From NCBI RefSeq assembly GCF_001746415.1, contig NZ_MEHJ01000001.1:2873001-2937000 (forward strand): a DNA stretch of 64,000 nucleotides, written 5' to 3'. Shown here piece after piece: positions 5,173-55,723 of this stretch (position 1 is its first letter; every line of letters begins with the position of its first letter). Under the pieces are notes generated by a model. The model did no database searches. It was not told where the DNA came from and saw only the letters and a list, made by a program, of their open reading frames with translations. The position numbers and the translations under genes were made by a program. This DNA comes from Streptomyces agglomeratus. GTDB lineage: Bacteria; Actinomycetota; Actinomycetes; Streptomycetales; Streptomycetaceae.

Positions 5173-5246
5173 TAGCGGGGACAGGATTTGAACCTGCGAC
5201 CTCTGGGTTATGAGCCCAGCGAGCTACCGAGCTGCTCCACCCCGCG
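5173..5246 (-). tRNA. tRNA-fMet (CAT), initiator, copy 1
   Basis: Read on the minus strand this folds as a full cloverleaf of 74 bases, with no encoded CCA. The anticodon loop CTCATAA sits on a stem carrying the three G-C pairs (GGG...CCC) diagnostic of initiator tRNA. The acceptor has the unpaired first position (C1 opposite U72) seen in actinobacterial initiators. The T-arm GTTCAAATC is intact. It is base-for-base identical to the second copy at 7971-8044. Confidence 0.96.
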
Positions 5247-7970: not shown

Positions 7971-8044
7971 TAGCGGGGACAGGATTTGAACCTGCGACCT
8001 CTGGGTTATGAGCCCAGCGAGCTACCGAGCTGCTCCACCCCGCG
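7971..8044 (-). tRNA. tRNA-fMet (CAT), initiator, copy 2
   Basis: It has the same 74-base sequence as the first copy, including the GGG/CCC anticodon stem, C1/U72 and absent CCA. Similarity extends into the 3' flank and terminator, so tRNA plus terminator were duplicated together. It lies immediately downstream of the UPF0182 gene on the same strand. Confidence 0.96.
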
Positions 8045-48681: not shown

Positions 48682-49467
48682 TCATTCCGAGACACCCGGT
48701 CCGATCCGCGAGACGATTTCGTCCCAGTAGCCGGGCAGAGTCTCGAATGGTGCGTTTTGTCCGTCACCGTCGCTGTAGCCGCAGCCGTAGTCGCCGACGG
48801 CCGTCCGGTCCGTCATGAAGACCGTCCCGGCACCCTGCCAGCGGGCGATACGGACGGCCTCGTCCAGGTGCGTGCGCGGCAGCCCGTGCACCAGGTGGCA
48901 GAAGCGCTCGGGAGGGTGGTCCGCCGTCCATTCCGCCACCTGTGACCAGCGGTAGTCCGTCCACGGCCCCGAGAACGTCACCAGCTGGTCCGCGCTCTCG
49001 GCGTAGCCGGGATACGGGTGTGTGCCGTGCCCGAGGACCAGGTGGGCGCCGTCCTCCGGGACGCCGGACAGTGTGGTGGTCACGCGGCGCACCCCCGGCA
49101 GGTCTGTCCGGTCGCTGGGACAGCGGTCCAGATAGAAGCCGTCGACCCGGTACCAGTCGCGGAACCGGTGCGCGTCGGAGACGAGCTCACCGAAGGAGCG
49201 CGCCCCGTACGCCATGTCGATCCGGCCCAGGACGCGCACCCCGGCGTTGCGGAGGCGGCCTGCGGCCTCCAGGCAGTGCGGGTCGGGGCGGTCGCCCGGC
49301 CCGTCGGCCACGTTGAGCGCCACCCAGTGCAGCGGCGTACCGGGGCGGTTGAGTTCGCCCCACTCGACGGGGGCGACGAGCGGGTGCGCGTACCCGGGGA
49401 CCCCGATGCCCATGCGGTCGGCGGCGGTCGCGGCCTGTTGCCGCCTGGGCCTGGTCAGATGCGGCAT
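48682..49467 (-). CDS. Spherulation-specific family 4 (spherulin-4/GH135-like) protein
   Basis: A 261-residue TIM-barrel-like protein. Family marks are LHWVALNVADGPGDRPDP (the NPxxGPG block), VRVLGRIDMAYGARS and VDGFYLDRCPSD. Asp114 of the last block sits where fungal Sph3 has its catalytic Asp-Glu pair, but the next residue is Arg instead of Glu. Sph3 is a GH135 glycosidase acting on galactosaminogalactan. No signal peptide is visible, unlike secreted members, so a cytoplasmic or membrane-associated role is possible. It is the last gene of an operon with a PelF-like glycosyltransferase and an epimerase, overlapping the latter by 13 bases. Confidence 0.85.
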   Translation of the reverse strand: MPHLTRPRRQQAATAADRMGIGVPGYAHPLVAPVEWGELNRPGTPLHWVALNVADGPGDRPDPHCLEAAGRLRNAGVRVLGRIDMAYGARSFGELVSDAHRFRDWYRVDGFYLDRCPSDRTDLPGVRRVTTTLSGVPEDGAHLVLGHGTHPYPGYAESADQLVTFSGPWTDYRWSQVAEWTADHPPERFCHLVHGLPRTHLDEAVRIARWQGAGTVFMTDRTAVGDYGCGYSDGDGQNAPFETLPGYWDEIVSRIGPGVSE

Positions 49468-50465
49468 GCGGCCTCCATCCAGATGTCGGCGAGCGACTCC
49501 TCCAGGTTGATCCGGGGCCGCCAGCCGAGGCGGTCGCGCGCGGTGCGCACGTCGGCCTGCTGCCAGCTGCCGCAGCCGTCCGGGTACGGGTACGGGGTTC
49601 CCAGGTGATCCGGGGACATCTCGCCGCGTTGCGGCCCCACCGAGGAGAGCACGCTGCCCACTCCGCCGTTGCGCGCGGCCGCCGCCGCGCTGCCCGGGAC
49701 GTAGCCGGAGGGCGCGTCGAGCTCGTGGAGCGCGCCGCCGTAGCCGGCGACCCTGGCCAGGACGGCGGCGGCGTCCCGCAGCCGGACCGCGCGGCCGGTG
49801 CCGATGTTGACGGCGCCCTGCGCGGCGGAGAGCGAGGCCGCGTGCACGGCGCGCGCCACATCGCGTACGTCGACGAAGTCCCGCTGCACGCCGAGGCCGC
49901 TCAGCTTCAGCTCGCCGTCCCCGGACTGCATCGCCCGCCGCATCGCCTCGGCGAGGCGGCCCAGCGGCGAGCCCGCCGGCGTTCCGGGTCCGACCGGTGA
50001 GAAGACCCGGAGCACGACGGCGTCGAGCCCGGAGCCGAGCACCAGCTCGGTGGCGGCGAGCTTGCTGACGCCGTACGGGCCGCCGGGGCGGGGCACGGCG
50101 TCCTCGGCGGTGGACGACCCCGGCTGCGAGGGTCCGTACTCGGCGGCGCAGCCGAGCTGCACGAGCCGCGCTCCGCAGCCGCTGCGGCGCAGTGCCTCGC
50201 AGACGGTCGCGACGGCGACGGTGTTGTGCCGGGTCAGTTCGCGGGCGCCGCCGCGGGTGGCGCCGGCGCAGTTGATGACGACGCCGGGGTGCACGGCGTC
50301 CAGGAAGCGGGTCAGCGCACCGGGGCTGCCGGTGGCGAGGTCGAACCGTACGTCGGCGTCGTCGCCCCGCCCGAGGGCGGTGAGCTGCACGGCCGGGTCG
50401 GCGAGCAGCCGGTCGGCGACGAAGCGGCCGAGATATCCGTTGGCACCCAGCAGCAGCACCCTCAT
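49455..50465 (-). CDS. NAD-dependent sugar epimerase/dehydratase (extended SDR)
   Basis: A 336-residue extended SDR. It has the NAD motif VLLLGANGYLGRFVADRLL at the N-terminus, VINCAGATRGG, catalytic YxxxK in GPYGVSKLAATE, LRVFSPVGPGTPAGS and a C-terminal substrate segment (RPRINLEESLADIW). It should act on a nucleotide sugar such as UDP-hexose or UDP-HexNAc. The ATG follows GAGGGG. The reading frame remains open upstream for about 130 codons across the GGTCCGGT repeat, but that part is Pro/Thr/Asp/His repeats unlike the family. Its operon partners suggest it supplies the sugar donor for an exopolysaccharide. Confidence 0.87.
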   Translation of the reverse strand: MRVLLLGANGYLGRFVADRLLADPAVQLTALGRGDDADVRFDLATGSPGALTRFLDAVHPGVVINCAGATRGGARELTRHNTVAVATVCEALRRSGCGARLVQLGCAAEYGPSQPGSSTAEDAVPRPGGPYGVSKLAATELVLGSGLDAVVLRVFSPVGPGTPAGSPLGRLAEAMRRAMQSGDGELKLSGLGVQRDFVDVRDVARAVHAASLSAAQGAVNIGTGRAVRLRDAAAVLARVAGYGGALHELDAPSGYVPGSAAAAARNGGVGSVLSSVGPQRGEMSPDHLGTPYPYPDGCGSWQQADVRTARDRLGWRPRINLEESLADIWMEAACRI

Positions 50466-50603
50466 CGCGCGTCCCCTCGGTGCCGACCGGCGGAAGTTGG
50501 GGGTTGGGGGGTCATGGTCACGTTCTCCTTCGGGGATGTTGCGGTGAGTGCTGCGGTGTACGCCCGCGGCGTCGGCTCCGCGGGAGGCTGGACGGATTGG
50601 TGC

Positions 50604-50796
50604 GGTCCGGTTCGGTCCGGGTGCGGTGTGGTCCGCTGTGGTGTGGTCCGGTCCGACGGTGGGCCGGTCCGGTGGTGGGCCGGTCCGGTGGTGGGCCGGT
50701 CCGGTCCGACGGTGGTCCGGTCCGGTGTGGTCCGGTCCGGTGGTGGGCCGGTCCGGTGTGGTCCGGTCCGGTTGTGGTCCGGTCCGGTGGTCAGGT
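50604..50796. repeat. GGTCCGGT-type tandem repeat tract
   Basis: About 190 bases of overlapping short units (GGTCCGGT, GGTGGGCCGGTCCGGT, GGTGTGGTCCGGTCC), with strong strand bias of G/T over A/C. The block CCGGTGGTGGGCCGGT recurs several times. It fills most of the 337-base gap between the membrane-protein and epimerase genes. In the epimerase frame it reads as a Pro/Thr/Asp/His-rich repeat. No palindromic spacing or protein-binding array is obvious. Confidence 0.85.
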
Positions 50797-50802
50797 GGTT
50801 GG

Positions 50803-52485
50803 TCAGTGGGGCGGGCCGTGGCGTCCGTCGGGGCCGTGCCGTCCGTCTTGTCGTTCACGGCCGTCCCTTCGGGCCCCGCCGTCCGGCCCCTTCGGGCGGG
50901 GGTCGGCGGTTTCCGGCCGGCCGGCGTGGGCCGAGGTGCGGGAGAGGGCCGCGGTGGCGTGGACCAGCAGGGCGAGCGCGGGCAGGGCGCAGGCGGCGGC
51001 GGGTACGGTGCCCGGGCCGCCGGCCCCGACGAGGTACTCGACGGGCCGGGCGAGGAAGCCGCAGCCGGGCAGGCGGGCCGCCAGTACGGCGGCAAGGGCG
51101 GTGATCTGTAGGGCGGCAGCGGCGGCAAGGCCCGCCTGCGCGGGGCGGGGAAAACCGTGGACGGTGAGCAGCCGGGCGAGGAAGAGGAGCGCGCCCAGAG
51201 CGACGCCGGCGGCGAGAGGGGCCCGGCCGCTGCCCCCGGCCGCGCTCACCACGGCGATCTGGAGACAGAGGAGTACGCCCACGAAGAGCCCGGTGAGGCC
51301 GATCAGGAGCGGACGTACCGACGCCGCGAACTCCTCGGTGCCCCGGCTCGTGGCGAGCTTGCGCCGCGCCTGTACGCCGAGGAGGTGCGCGCACCACGCG
51401 GCCGGGACGAGGGCCCACGCGAGGGCCACGAGCGTCGTGCTCTCCATCGGCCACGGTCCGTCGGGGCCGCCCGCGACGAGCTGACCGAGCAGCCCGTCGC
51501 CGAAGACGGCGTACGCGAGCAGCCAGCACACCCACAGGCGTGCGGCGGGCGCTGTGCGCCCCTCGGCGCGCAGGGGGCCGTGGCGCAGGCACAGGGTGAC
51601 GGCGACCGCGACGACCAGTACCCCGGTCGCGGCGACCGCCCACCCCACGCGGCCTGTGGTGAGTCGGAGCCCGGCGGCCGTGAGGGCGCACGCGACGCCG
51701 GGCAGCAGCGCGTACGCGATCCAGCCGGCGCGCCCCCGGGGCGTACGCGCGGGGGCGTGCACGGCGCTGTCACCGACCCGCGGCACACGTGCGTACAGCT
51801 CCTCGGCCAGCGCGAAGACGTCCCGGTGGCGGAAACGCGCGGCGGTCCTGTCGGTCACCCCGTGCGCTTCGAGCCCGGCGGCGATCTCCAGTGGGTCGAC
51901 GGCCCGCTCGCACAGCTCCCGGTGGCGGTGCATCAGCGCCCGTACCGGGTCCGCGGGTCCACGGCGCGGCGGCGACACGGCGGTGCCGGGGACGGCGGCT
52001 CCCGGGCCGGGGTCGGCGGATGCGGGGGCGGGGGCGGCGGATGCGGGGGGGGCGGCCGTCAGCGGGGCGCCGGTGTCCCACGCGCCGGGACTCAGCGGGG
52101 TACGGGGGGCGTCCCACACGCCCCCGCCGGGGGCAGCCGGTGTACGGGCTGCGCTCATCGACATGCCTCCTCCACTGACGTTCGGTCCACCGGCCCCGCT
52201 CCCGCCCCGAACGCCCCCGGCAACCACCGCAGTTGCGGTCGCGGTCGCGGGGTTCCCGGGCGTGGTCGCGGTCGCCGGCATCGCGGTCGCCGTCCCCGCC
52301 CCACTCCCGGAGGCGAGGGTTCCGGGGGGCGACGCGGTCCCCGCCGTGCCCGATGCCCCCGTGGCAGCCGCTGCCCGTGCGGTGGCCGTTGCCCGAACCG
52401 TGGCCGCTGCTCCCGTGATGGCCGAAGGCCCCGTACCGGCCGAGGGTCTCGCCGGATCCTGCTGTCCGCCGTGTCGCTCAGACAT
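50803..52485 (-). CDS. Polytopic membrane protein of the glycosyltransferase operon
   Basis: A 560-residue protein. Residues 1-190 are low-complexity Ala/Thr/Gly/Pro. Next is a small conserved soluble block (VRALMHRHRELCERAVDPLEIAAGLEAHGVTDRTAARFRHRDVFALAEELY). About eight membrane helices follow from residue 250 on (e.g. IAYALLPGVACALTAAGL, GWAVAATGVLVVAVAVTLCL, LLIGLTGLFVGVLLCLQIAV). The C-terminus is polar with DGRHG repeats. The ATG follows GGGGGAG, and its start overlaps the end of the PelF-like gene by eight bases, fixing the operon. It does not look like a MOP flippase (PelG). It may be a transporter or scaffold for polysaccharide export; no family was recognised. Confidence 0.8.
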   Translation of the reverse strand: MSERHGGQQDPARPSAGTGPSAITGAAATVRATATARAAAATGASGTAGTASPPGTLASGSGAGTATAMPATATTPGNPATATATAVVAGGVRGGSGAGGPNVSGGGMSMSAARTPAAPGGGVWDAPRTPLSPGAWDTGAPLTAAPPASAAPAPASADPGPGAAVPGTAVSPPRRGPADPVRALMHRHRELCERAVDPLEIAAGLEAHGVTDRTAARFRHRDVFALAEELYARVPRVGDSAVHAPARTPRGRAGWIAYALLPGVACALTAAGLRLTTGRVGWAVAATGVLVVAVAVTLCLRHGPLRAEGRTAPAARLWVCWLLAYAVFGDGLLGQLVAGGPDGPWPMESTTLVALAWALVPAAWCAHLLGVQARRKLATSRGTEEFAASVRPLLIGLTGLFVGVLLCLQIAVVSAAGGSGRAPLAAGVALGALLFLARLLTVHGFPRPAQAGLAAAAALQITALAAVLAARLPGCGFLARPVEYLVGAGGPGTVPAAACALPALALLVHATAALSRTSAHAGRPETADPRPKGPDGGARRDGRERQDGRHGPDGRHGPPH

Positions 52486-54163
52486 CCCGCTCCCCCGGTC
52501 CCGTCCCGGCGCCCGCGCCCACCCGCTGCGACGCGCTTGCGGCGTCCGCCCAGCCGGGGCCGGAGGCACCGCGCGCCCAGCTGCCCGGTACATGTGCTTC
52601 CGCCGGGTGGGCGAAGAGCAGGGGTTCGCCGTCCGCGCCCACCGGTTCGCGCCGTACCGGGCAGTGGGAGATCAGCTCCAGGTAAATGCCTCGAAATGCC
52701 GCGAGATTCTGCTCGACGGTGAAGAGTTCGAGCGCGCGTGCCCGCGCCGCCGCTCCCAGCCGTTCGCGCCGCTCGGTATCACGCATCAGCGCCACACAGG
52801 CGTCGGCCAGTGCGCGGGGGTTGCGCGGCGGGACCACGAGCCCTGTGCCGCCGATGATTTCGACGACCGCGCCGACGTCCGTCGATACCGTGGCGCGCCC
52901 GCAGAACATCGCTTCGACCAGGCTGACCGGGAAGCCCTCGACGACGCTGGAGAGGACGACCACGCTCCCCGCCGCGTACGCGTCCACCAGGTCCGGCACC
53001 TCCGGCCCGCCGATCTCCTCGAACGAGACGGGGTTGTCCCCGACGGCGTGCGCGTCGGCCGCCTCGTCGGGGAAGAGCTGGGCGGCCAGGGCCTGGCAGT
53101 GCGCGAGATATCCGGCGGCGACAGCGCTTTGCCCGTACGGGTTGTGGACGATGCGCAACCGGGCCCGCGGCTCCGCCTTCCGCACCTCCGCGAAGGCGTG
53201 CAGCAGCGAGACGAGGTCCTTCGCGGGCTCCACGCGTCCGACCCAGACGAGCGTGCCCGGGTCGCCTCCGTCGCCGCCCTCGCCCAGCCCCGCGAAGCGC
53301 TCGGACTCCATGCCGGGGTAGACCGTACGCAGCTTCGCGCGGTCGGCGCCGCACCGCTCCTGCCACCGCCTGGCGTGCGTATTGCCCGGCGTGATCAGGG
53401 TGGCGCGGTCGTACACCTCGGCGGCGAGCTTGCCGTGGAAGGCGGCGAGCAGCGCCCGTACCGGTGCGCTCCGCCCGGTGCCCCCCTCCGCCAGATAGCG
53501 GGCCCGCAGCTGTACGCCGTACTCGGTGACCAGCAGGGGTACGCCGAAGAAGCGTTTGCCCAACAGCCCCGGCAGGGCGGCGGAGCCACCGGAAGCCGCG
53601 TGGCACAGATCGACGGCACCGAGGCTCCGGTCGTCGTACCAGTCGAGCGACAGGGGCCGCAGCGCGCGCTCCAGCAGGTCGGCGAACGCGAGGTAGTCGG
53701 GGACCTTCGCGGCCTGTACGGCGCGGTTGGCACCGGGGGCGCGGCAGGCGGCCTCCAGGGCGCGTACGGCCACTTCGGAGCGCAGGGCGGCGTAGAGCCC
53801 GCCGTGCTCCGCGGCCAGCTCCGCGAGCCCGTAGAGCCCGGCGGCGAACCGGTCGCCCGCGCTCTCGTCCTCCTGGGCGCAGATCGCGGCGGCGAGCTCC
53901 CGGAAGTGCCCGGCGAACCGGCGCCGTTCGCGCCGCCCGTACGTACGGCCGTCGTCCTGTGGCGCCCACAGCGGTGCGGTACGCACCAGCCGCACGTGGG
54001 GCGGCAGCGGGAGCCGGCCCCGCGCCTCCTGGTCGGCGCTGCGGCTCAGGGCGTAGACATCGAATTCGTGCTGCGCGAGCCCGCGCACGAGCCGGTCGCA
54101 CCAGAGCCTGGAATCACCTGTCGCATACGGGTAGCCACCCTCCGTGAGCAGTGCGATCCGCAC
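52478..54163 (-). CDS. PelF-like family 4 glycosyltransferase (DUF3492 + GT4)
   Basis: A 561-residue GT-B glycosyltransferase. The N-terminal DUF3492 domain typical of PelF is present (RIALLTEGGYPYATGDSRLWCDRLVRGLAQHEFDVYALS, plus LDWYDD...AVDLCHAASGGSAAL). The GT4 half follows: TLVWVGRVEPAKDLVSLLHAF, the donor-site PDLVDAYAAGSVVVLSSVVEGFPVSLVEAMFCGR with the EGFPVSLVEAM glutamates, and STDVGAVVEII. PelF is the cytoplasmic enzyme that polymerises GalNAc/GlcNAc-rich Pel. GTG start; a homology-based choice over the upstream frame. It leads an operon with a membrane protein, an epimerase and a spherulin-4-like protein. Confidence 0.88.
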   Translation of the reverse strand: MRIALLTEGGYPYATGDSRLWCDRLVRGLAQHEFDVYALSRSADQEARGRLPLPPHVRLVRTAPLWAPQDDGRTYGRRERRRFAGHFRELAAAICAQEDESAGDRFAAGLYGLAELAAEHGGLYAALRSEVAVRALEAACRAPGANRAVQAAKVPDYLAFADLLERALRPLSLDWYDDRSLGAVDLCHAASGGSAALPGLLGKRFFGVPLLVTEYGVQLRARYLAEGGTGRSAPVRALLAAFHGKLAAEVYDRATLITPGNTHARRWQERCGADRAKLRTVYPGMESERFAGLGEGGDGGDPGTLVWVGRVEPAKDLVSLLHAFAEVRKAEPRARLRIVHNPYGQSAVAAGYLAHCQALAAQLFPDEAADAHAVGDNPVSFEEIGGPEVPDLVDAYAAGSVVVLSSVVEGFPVSLVEAMFCGRATVSTDVGAVVEIIGGTGLVVPPRNPRALADACVALMRDTERRERLGAAARARALELFTVEQNLAAFRGIYLELISHCPVRREPVGADGEPLLFAHPAEAHVPGSWARGASGPGWADAASASQRVGAGAGTGPGERDV

Positions 54164-54394: not shown

Positions 54395-55723
54395 TCAACT
54401 GCCGGGAAAGACCCATGCGTTGGGCTTGCACCGGATGCCTCCGATGTCCAGCGACTTCGTCTGCTGCTGCATGATCGGCGCGAGTTCGCCGGGCGTCTCG
54501 CAGTTCTTGTGACCGTGTCCGAGCCGGTGGCCGACCTCGTGATTGATGAGCATCTGCCGGTACGCGAACATCTTGTCCTTGCCGAAGGTCGGCGCCCCCT
54601 GCGCCCACCGGAAGGCGTTGATCATGACCCGCTCGGTCGCCGCGGAATCGCACGAGACATTGCCGGAAAGCGTGTCGAGACCGGACTTCGCGCACCACTC
54701 GCCGGTGGTCCCGGGGCTCGCCAGCGTGACGACGAAGTCGGGCCGGCCGGACGAGATCCGCTCGAACGTCATCGCACCGTTGTGCGCCCAGCTCCGGTCG
54801 TCGTTGAGCGTCTCCTGCACGGCGCGGGCGAAGAGGGCGCCGTCGAGGCGCAGCCCCTTCTCGACGTCCACCCGGTAGGTGTACTTCTGCCCCTTGCCGG
54901 GCGCCTTGTCGAACCCGCCGATCGCCTGGAACTCGCCCCGGCCGGTGAGCTTCGGGGCGATCGGGTACGTCCGGGACATCTGCTGGTCGTACGTCGCCGG
55001 GGCGGCGGCCGCCTGCTCCCGGGACGGCGTCGGCCGGGGGTCGGAACGTGAGGCGTCGCTCTCGCGGGTGGCCCGGTCCCCGGCCGCCGGGGCGGCCACG
55101 GGGTCCTTCTCGCCCTGGGCGACCTGTCCGGCGACGACCACGGCGAGCACGGTGGTCACCGCGGCGGCGGCGACGCCGGTGAAGGCGCGCCCCTTGCCGC
55201 CCCTGGCAGGTCCGTCGTCGTACGTGTCCGGAGAACCGCCGTCGCCGTCACCGGCGGCAGCCGTCTCGTCCCGCTCCCGGTCGGCGCCCGCGCCGGAAGG
55301 ACCGGTCGCCGGCACCCTCCGCCGCGGTGCGTCGAACGCCTCGACGAACTCCTGCCGGGGCCCCGGAATGCGCGCCCCGGCCGCCGCGTAGCGGGCCTGC
55401 GGCTGCGGCGGGCCCTGCGCCGCCCCCTGCCGGTCGCCGTACCTGCCGTCGGGCGCGGCGCCCCAGCCGCCGCCGGGCTCGCGCTGCTCGGGGTGGCCAC
55501 CGCGCACGTGCGGCACCCCGTGAGCGGGGGTGCCGCCGTACTGCTGTTGCCGCTCCTGTGGCCGCCGGGGGGCGGACGCGGCCTCGTAGTCCGCGGTTCT
55601 CGCACGTCCGCGCCGTCCACCCGGTGCGTCCGGACCTGCCGGCGCCTCCTCGGCGGGCCCCGGTATGGCGGGTTTCCCGGCAGCCCCCTTGGGTGCGGGG
55701 CCTCGGCGACTATGACGTCCCAC
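54395..55723 (-). CDS. DUF3152 membrane-anchored putative zinc metallopeptidase
   Basis: A 442-residue protein. Residues 1-185 are a disordered Pro/Gly/Arg/Gln-rich cytoplasmic stretch. A single transmembrane helix follows (AFTGVAAAAVTTVLAVVVAGQVA), then an extracytoplasmic DUF3152 domain. That domain ends with INHEVGHRLGHGHKNC, an HExxHxxGxxH metzincin-type zinc site, with cysteines that could form disulfides (EWCAKSG, VSCDS, NCETPG, IRCKPN). The family is annotated only as a domain of unknown function, but the zinc motif is unmistakable. The GTG start is nine bases after the upstream hydrolase stop. Mycobacterium has the same gene next to moeZ (Rv3207c). Confidence 0.87.
   Translation of the reverse strand: MGRHSRRGPAPKGAAGKPAIPGPAEEAPAGPDAPGGRRGRARTADYEAASAPRRPQERQQQYGGTPAHGVPHVRGGHPEQREPGGGWGAAPDGRYGDRQGAAQGPPQPQARYAAAGARIPGPRQEFVEAFDAPRRRVPATGPSGAGADRERDETAAAGDGDGGSPDTYDDGPARGGKGRAFTGVAAAAVTTVLAVVVAGQVAQGEKDPVAAPAAGDRATRESDASRSDPRPTPSREQAAAAPATYDQQMSRTYPIAPKLTGRGEFQAIGGFDKAPGKGQKYTYRVDVEKGLRLDGALFARAVQETLNDDRSWAHNGAMTFERISSGRPDFVVTLASPGTTGEWCAKSGLDTLSGNVSCDSAATERVMINAFRWAQGAPTFGKDKMFAYRQMLINHEVGHRLGHGHKNCETPGELAPIMQQQTKSLDIGGIRCKPNAWVFPGS

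Follow-up and report, generated by a model that had tools for sequence, protein, structure and literature searches.

A moeZ-linked relative of galactosaminogalactan/Pel-like clusters in Streptomyces as a candidate repurposed polysaccharide locus

Does a gene block that joins a PelF-like glycosyltransferase to a spherulin of the GH135 family encode an N-acetylgalactosamine (GalNAc) polymer system? The question is raised by four minus-strand genes at positions 48682-54163 of a 64,000-nucleotide window of Streptomyces agglomeratus (GCF_001746415.1, NZ_MEHJ01000001.1:2,873,001-2,937,000), the window being the whole stretch of DNA that was analysed and the source of all coordinates given here unless another locus is named. 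The block encodes a DUF3492/GT4 transferase, a multispanning membrane protein, a short-chain dehydrogenase/reductase (SDR) and a Spherulin4 protein, and the observation of this four-gene locus, made in a first-pass annotation, is confirmed by the open reading frames (ORFs) and by Pfam (DUF3492, Epimerase, Spherulin4). By sequence comparison the locus is kin to galactosaminogalactan (GAG)/Pel-like clusters. That kinship and the joint conservation of the genes bear out one half of the earlier interpretation; the other half, comprising an active GH135 enzyme, a Uge3-like epimerase, the identity of the locus and its novelty, was not supported by the analysis.

The acid/base residue of the window spherulin

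The catalytic pair of Sph3 consists of an aspartate nucleophile and the acid/base Glu222, printed as Asp196/Glu222 in PMC12054363. The window protein belongs to the Spherulin4 family (GH135/Sph3) by its match to PF12138 (Table 1), and it also matches PDB entry 5c5g (6.7e-06). The Asp-Glu spacing in the 5c5g alignment is 56 residues, matching 166/222, Asp166 being what we take to be the number of the nucleophile. In the window spherulin the aspartate is kept as Asp114 and the equivalent of Glu222 is Ser166, so that the Asp/Glu pair of GH135 is incomplete.

The loss of this glutamate is general among the orthologues. We use type C for the window-type, moeZ-linked locus and its orthologues, and A/B for the types of its paralogous loci, of which 20 were chosen by hand from match lists. 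A glutamate stands at the Glu222 column in 22/22 A/B rows and in 3/3 rows from other Actinomycetes, and in only two of 64 type C rows (L152 and L155); one type C row has an aspartate there. The catalytic Asp is retained in 50 of the 64. Tyr82 and Asn146, present in every A/B row and retained by L152 and the three other rows, are found in three (Tyr) and one (Asn) of the 64 type C spherulins. Among the 44 spherulin columns that are invariant in A/B, 22 are kept at ≥90% in type C and seven at <10%, and Tyr82, Asn146 and the Glu at 166 are the three of these seven that are also common to L152 and the three other rows. Matches covering ≤55% of the query were excluded from residue counts and trees, and two loci (L042 and L051) from the residue, substitution-rate, tree, micro-ORF and inverted-repeat counts.

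A crude hydropathy scan, made with no signal-peptide predictor, found no segment ≥1.8 in any of the 64 sph3 and 25 sph1 sequences, whereas such a segment was found in 19/22 Agd3-like and 15/16 GH114 proteins. With serine in the window, a residue other than Glu in 62 of the 64 type C rows and no anchor or signal segment by this crude measure, the active GH135 enzyme of the first-pass annotation is not supported, and the best reading of the residues is that the window-type spherulin no longer hydrolyses.

Paralogous loci and the descent of type C

The genome encodes three DUF3492 transferases, with a spherulin near each. Locus A (L020) has the order Agd3-like protein, glycosyltransferase, membrane protein, 4,6-dehydratase (LegB-like, 452 bits with a cut-off of 475), nucleotidyltransferase, SDR, spherulin, GH114; locus B (L021) has the order Agd3-like protein, glycosyltransferase, membrane protein, spherulin, GH114. 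Both GH114 matches of the genome sit at these loci, leaving none at the window locus, where tblastn also finds no Agd3-like deacetylase; the deacetylase is present at L020, L021 and L152. The Agd3 assignment is distant, with PF25115 in nine of 19 rows (best 9.1e-07), CBM87 in two of 19 and no PDB match by either single sequence or profile. The membrane proteins of the window and of the paralogous loci share 24-31% identity.

The window locus is probably a reduced cousin of loci A and B. It had been put forward as the GalNAc polymer system itself, but the deacetylase and GH114 that are missing there are present at the two paralogous loci, which are the more plausible candidates for a GAG/Pel-like polymer. 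Nor is the combination of genes new: loci A and B are of a kind already described and fit the bacterial Agd3 operons with glycosyltransferase, membrane protein and Spherulin-4 reported in PMC7229062.

A complete cluster beside moeZ is found at L152 (1531-16064), in one genome from another Streptomycetaceae genus; this locus was preferred to the shorter L151. It carries an Agd3-like gene, glycosyltransferase, membrane protein, 4,6-dehydratase, nucleotidyltransferase, SDR, spherulin and GH114, with moeZ ∼2.5 kilobases (kb) downstream and an intervening gene that reads, by eye only, as biotin synthase. Trees of the SDR (42 rows), the transferase (46) and the spherulin (33) all separate L152 and type C from A/B, with a support of 100 in the SH-aLRT branch test. 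A larger spherulin tree, which includes three rows from other Actinomycetes, places type C and L152 together on one side of a branch with a support of 99; a fourth such row (L117), which has Glu at the acid/base column, was left out of this tree. The same tree and the micro-ORF and inverted-repeat counts exclude six loci whose contigs are equal in length to those of included loci (L156, L157, L163, L177, L178 and L180). From these data we infer that type C arose by gene loss from an L152-like cluster.

Conservation, selection and the partner proteins

The first-pass annotation had staked its case on the genes being conserved together in other Streptomyces, and this they are. Among 101 Streptomyces genomes, by the matches listed and with type C membership assigned by score and place, 90 carry the type C transferase and 95 the type C spherulin, and in 82 the two lie ≤8 kb apart on one contig. 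The remaining genomes have the two on different contigs (3), the transferase only (5), the spherulin only (10) or neither (1), where absences of the transferase are upper bounds because only part of its candidates were scored per genome (e.g. 13/43); indeed G088 (L046), counted as spherulin-only, does hold a transferase by locus search. The SDR was found in 132/132 Streptomyces genomes at E 1e-30 and, at the same threshold, in 0/15 genomes from other families of the order; within Streptomycetaceae it is present in 54 of 61 genomes and 15 of 17 genera. Of the 40 genus loci retrieved, a non-random set made up of 20 with high-scoring transferases and 20 exceptions or lower scorers, 31 show the full order transferase, membrane protein, SDR, spherulin, moeZ. 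The spherulin is absent from four of the 40 (L047-L050), the transferase is missing, broken or fragmentary in another four (L042-L045), and L051 (G010), whose sequence is interrupted by runs of N, has only fragments of the SDR, membrane gene and transferase. At L043, L044 and L045, where the transferase is absent or a remnant, no membrane gene was found, yet the SDR and spherulin are still adjacent. As the type C spherulin is the sole spherulin match found in 24 genomes, among the matches listed, type C is seemingly independent of the paralogous loci. Among the papers listed on Streptomyces spherulin, PelF, GAG and Pel, none has a title or abstract opening on the moeZ-linked locus, with most subscription journals lying outside this survey.

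Selection on the four genes differs. As the median over up to 10 pairs (Nei-Gojobori, own script), the ratio of nonsynonymous to synonymous substitution rates (dN/dS) in type C is 0.060 for the SDR, 0.117 for moeZ, 0.213 for the spherulin, 0.247 for the transferase and 0.378 for the membrane protein. In seven of 10 pairs the SDR has a lower ratio than moeZ, but its dN is lower in just two of 10, so the constraint on the two genes is best called comparable. Baselines for A/B (3-6 pairs) are 0.185/0.185 for the transferase, 0.260/0.361 for the spherulin, 0.355/0.320 for the membrane protein and 0.357 for the type A SDR, which means a roughly sixfold stronger constraint on the window-type SDR than on its type A counterpart. 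The window-type spherulin, for its part, shows no relaxation of constraint when compared with its catalytic-looking paralogues.

The SDR carries the YxxxK motif that had been reported for it, with the Tyr and Lys in 39/39 type C rows and a Cys in place of the Ser of the paralogues, also in 39/39. Its best solved relative is 2pk3 (3.6e-19), a GDP-6-deoxy-D-lyxo-4-hexulose reductase, and it scores below all listed equivalog cut-offs. A Uge3-like epimerase, as first proposed, is not supported, the GalE score being 32.7 bits, far under the cut-off of 262.3, and the nearest solved structure a reductase; the profile and structure-database searches made gave the SDR no specific function.

The gene lies behind a leader of its own. 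At 37 of 38 Streptomyces loci the SDR ATG is overlapped by the TGA of a micro-ORF that is 13-38 codons long and has a Shine-Dalgarno (SD)-like word, 35 of them within 12-30 codons, although some of these may be chance finds, since the script took the best candidate per locus with no shuffle control. No such micro-ORF is seen at 12/12 type A SDRs, and nine of 43 other Streptomycetaceae rows have one of 12-30 codons. The TGA is dictated by the second codon of the SDR. We read the micro-ORF as a probable translational coupling device for the SDR, because its peptide is unconserved while its frame is conserved. The pair CCGCGG-N-CCGCGG occurs upstream of the SDR at 14 of 39 loci (shuffle mean 0.145, maximum 2), as against 0/38 upstream of the transferase and 0/39 upstream of moeZ, and Rfam has no match over the leader.

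The transferase was called PelF-type, which holds in that it is PelF-like and has the DUF3492 domain but not at the level of the NCBIfam PelF equivalog, whose cut-off of 100 bits it just misses at 98.8; L020, L021 and L152 score 166, 171 and 163 bits, and the PelG-linked L183 scores 487. The Gly loop and the His of GT4 enzymes serve donor binding. Across 36 Streptomyces type C transferases T10 is replaced by G (36/36), G17 by D, E or Q (36/36) and N283 by P (36/36), and H215 is lost in 34. All four residues are present in A/B (22/22), at L152 and in the two transferases encoded beside PelG, those of L184 and of L183, the latter a PelF by score. The change H13Y was set aside as evidence, since the PelG-linked transferases also have Tyr at this position.

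For the membrane protein, at least 1529 matches were found among 8000 scored candidates, the best 120 of which are named hypothetical, uncharacterized or (integral) membrane protein. Its description as an eight-helix protein is right as to multiple spans and unsettled as to the number, since a crude hydropathy scan counts 11 segments for the window protein and between 4 and 12 for its orthologues (one misplaced match gave 0). It shows no similarity to a PelG profile, a weak comparison given that the profile was built from two sequences. PelG itself was said to be lacking, and none was found in this genome by a search that passed its cut-off in 2/119 genomes and in Thermotoga. A search for PelD (PF16963) had no match anywhere, positive controls likewise being unmatched, and so is uninformative.

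The arrangement of the genes (Table 1) agrees with the account of them as overlapping or repeat-separated. With the transferase stop at 52478-52480 and an inferred ATG at 52485 for the membrane gene (listed ORF 50803-52593), these two overlap by 8 nucleotides; the SDR and spherulin genes overlap by 13, and a GGTCC-type array parts the membrane gene from the SDR. Just upstream of the transferase lies a DUF3152 protein with a weak matrixin-like match (54395-55723, minus strand), which is also near the transferase in many orthologous loci. Elsewhere in the window, two tRNA genes (5173-5246 and 7971-8044, minus strand) have equal scores.

Table 1. Genes and sequence elements of the four-gene block, in window coordinates
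Feature	Position	Strand	Details
PelF-like GT4 transferase with DUF3492	52478..54163	-	561 amino acids, GTG start; Pfam DUF3492 1.3e-31
Multispanning membrane protein with N-terminal soluble domain	50803..52485	-	no Pfam family
GGTCC-type tandem repeat between membrane gene and SDR	50598..50791	.	repeat array
Inverted repeat CCCGCGG-N8-CCGCGGG, upstream of SDR leader	50563..50584	-	read from sequence
Micro-ORF, 17 amino acids, SD AAGGAG; TGA overlaps SDR ATG as ATGA	50462..50515	-	
Extended SDR, reductase-like	49455..50465	-	336 amino acids; Pfam Epimerase 1.1e-36
Spherulin4/GH135-fold-family protein without acid/base Glu	48682..49467	-	261 amino acids; Pfam PF12138 1.6e-20

What the locus may do, and known systems

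The reading that we put forward, and hold to be probable in its broad form, is of a repurposed pathway with the SDR as the conserved enzyme and a non-hydrolytic spherulin. Type C would be a reduced descendant that has lost the deacetylase, dehydratase, nucleotidyltransferase and GH114 and has been inherited vertically in Streptomycetaceae. The strongly selected SDR, behind its own leader micro-ORF, may be a cytoplasmic enzyme with a nucleotide sugar as its substrate; the transferase would join the membrane protein in a membrane complex in which standard PelF chemistry has been given up; and the spherulin, presumably cytosolic and without its acid/base, would bind a sugar chain or the complex instead of cutting. 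This broad form overlaps with the next reading, so the odds do not add up to one. A more far-reaching version, with a probability of roughly one in four, is a Streptomyces-wide "pseudo-synthase": what was once an alpha-1,4-GalNAc-type synthase/hydrolase pair would now be a non-catalytic, glycan-binding or glycan-sensing membrane complex, to which a conserved SDR with a translation-coupled leader is tied.

Several observations weigh against this repurposing and the descent proposed for it. The L152 transferase is nearer to type A (58% identity) than to the window (48%), and its SDR (57% versus 55%) and spherulin (51% versus 49%) are only slightly nearer to the window than to A. The complete moeZ-linked cluster is known from one genome only and has the extra gene before moeZ. 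The trees were quick ones, with long-branch warnings that name the L152 SDR, and, since the root was assumed on A/B, they do not strictly establish that genes were lost and not gained. L155 keeps Glu222, yet the deacetylase and GH114 were not found there, which argues that the losses were not simultaneous. As to the transferase, its EX7E and Arg/Lys are intact in the window and largely retained in type C (first Glu 30/36, second Glu 36/36, Arg 26/36, Lys 29/36), so activity with another donor is possible. Divergence is broad and reaches beyond the active site, given that, among 207 columns invariant in A/B, 96 are kept at ≥90% in type C and 71 are changed in over half of the rows; and the type C transferase is slightly less constrained than those of A/B (0.247 versus 0.185).

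The same intact motif underlies an alternative that overlaps with ours and that we regard as tentative, namely that the transferase is active but re-specialised, using a sugar that the SDR provides to make a different, non-deacetylated envelope glycan, with the spherulin serving only as a binding subunit. The invariant second Glu, the mostly kept Arg/Lys, the purifying selection on the transferase and the retention of its membrane partner in the 31 complete loci all suit an active enzyme. Set against this are the changes at G17 and H215, positions at which A/B, L152 and the PelG-linked transferases agree, and the loss of the first Glu, the Arg or the Lys in some rows.

We think it unlikely that the locus is a decaying relic, with the SDR alone functional today, in a housekeeping role elsewhere, and the other three genes on their way out. 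The presence of the SDR in all 132 Streptomyces genomes, the loci that lack the spherulin (L047-L050) or an intact transferase (L042-L045) and the ratio of 0.378 for the membrane protein would all be expected of such a relic. However, the transferase and spherulin remain within 8 kb of each other in 82 of the 101 genomes, the spherulin has a ratio no higher than that of its Glu222-bearing paralogues, and the ratio of the membrane protein is near those of A/B. The distinct but catalytically ordinary GalNAc/galactose exopolymer system of the first-pass annotation, with Uge3-, Gtb3- and Sph3-like activities, has the domain families and gene neighbourhood on its side; we consider it highly improbable in view of the missing acid/base Glu in 62 of 64 spherulins, the lack of deacetylase and GH114 at the locus and the GalE score of the SDR. 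The locus is likely an exopolysaccharide cluster on its way to another role, yet conserved across an industrially important genus. A GH135 and PelF-like annotation need not mean a GalNAc biofilm pathway, and in this genome the other two loci are indicated as more plausible sites of a GAG/Pel-like polymer.

Three known systems invite comparison. The fungal GAG cluster comprises uge3, gtb3, sph3, ega3 and agd3 (PMC7229062, PMC12054363) and has a glycosyltransferase and a GH135-family protein in common with the window locus, which differs in having no Ega3 or Agd3 counterpart, an SDR that does not score as GalE and a spherulin with no anchor or signal found by crude hydropathy. The Gram-positive Pel operon, pelDEADAFG (Whitfield et al. 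2020, PMC7112168), likewise sets a PelF-family transferase beside a membrane protein and an SDR-like part, the N-terminus of PelD being SDR-like and, for streptococci, clostridia and actinobacteria, described as probably inactive; in contrast, no PelG was found in the present genome and the window membrane protein lacks similarity to the two-sequence, and so weak, PelG profile. The bacterial Agd3 operons (Bamford et al. 2020, PMC7229062) combine a cytoplasmic glycosyltransferase and a multispanning membrane protein, often with GH114 and, in some Actinobacteria, with Spherulin-4. The window locus shares the transferase, the membrane protein and, with some of these operons, the Spherulin-4, and stands apart in lacking the Agd3-like deacetylase, GH114 and the spherulin acid/base, and in having an SDR that is far more constrained than that of type A.

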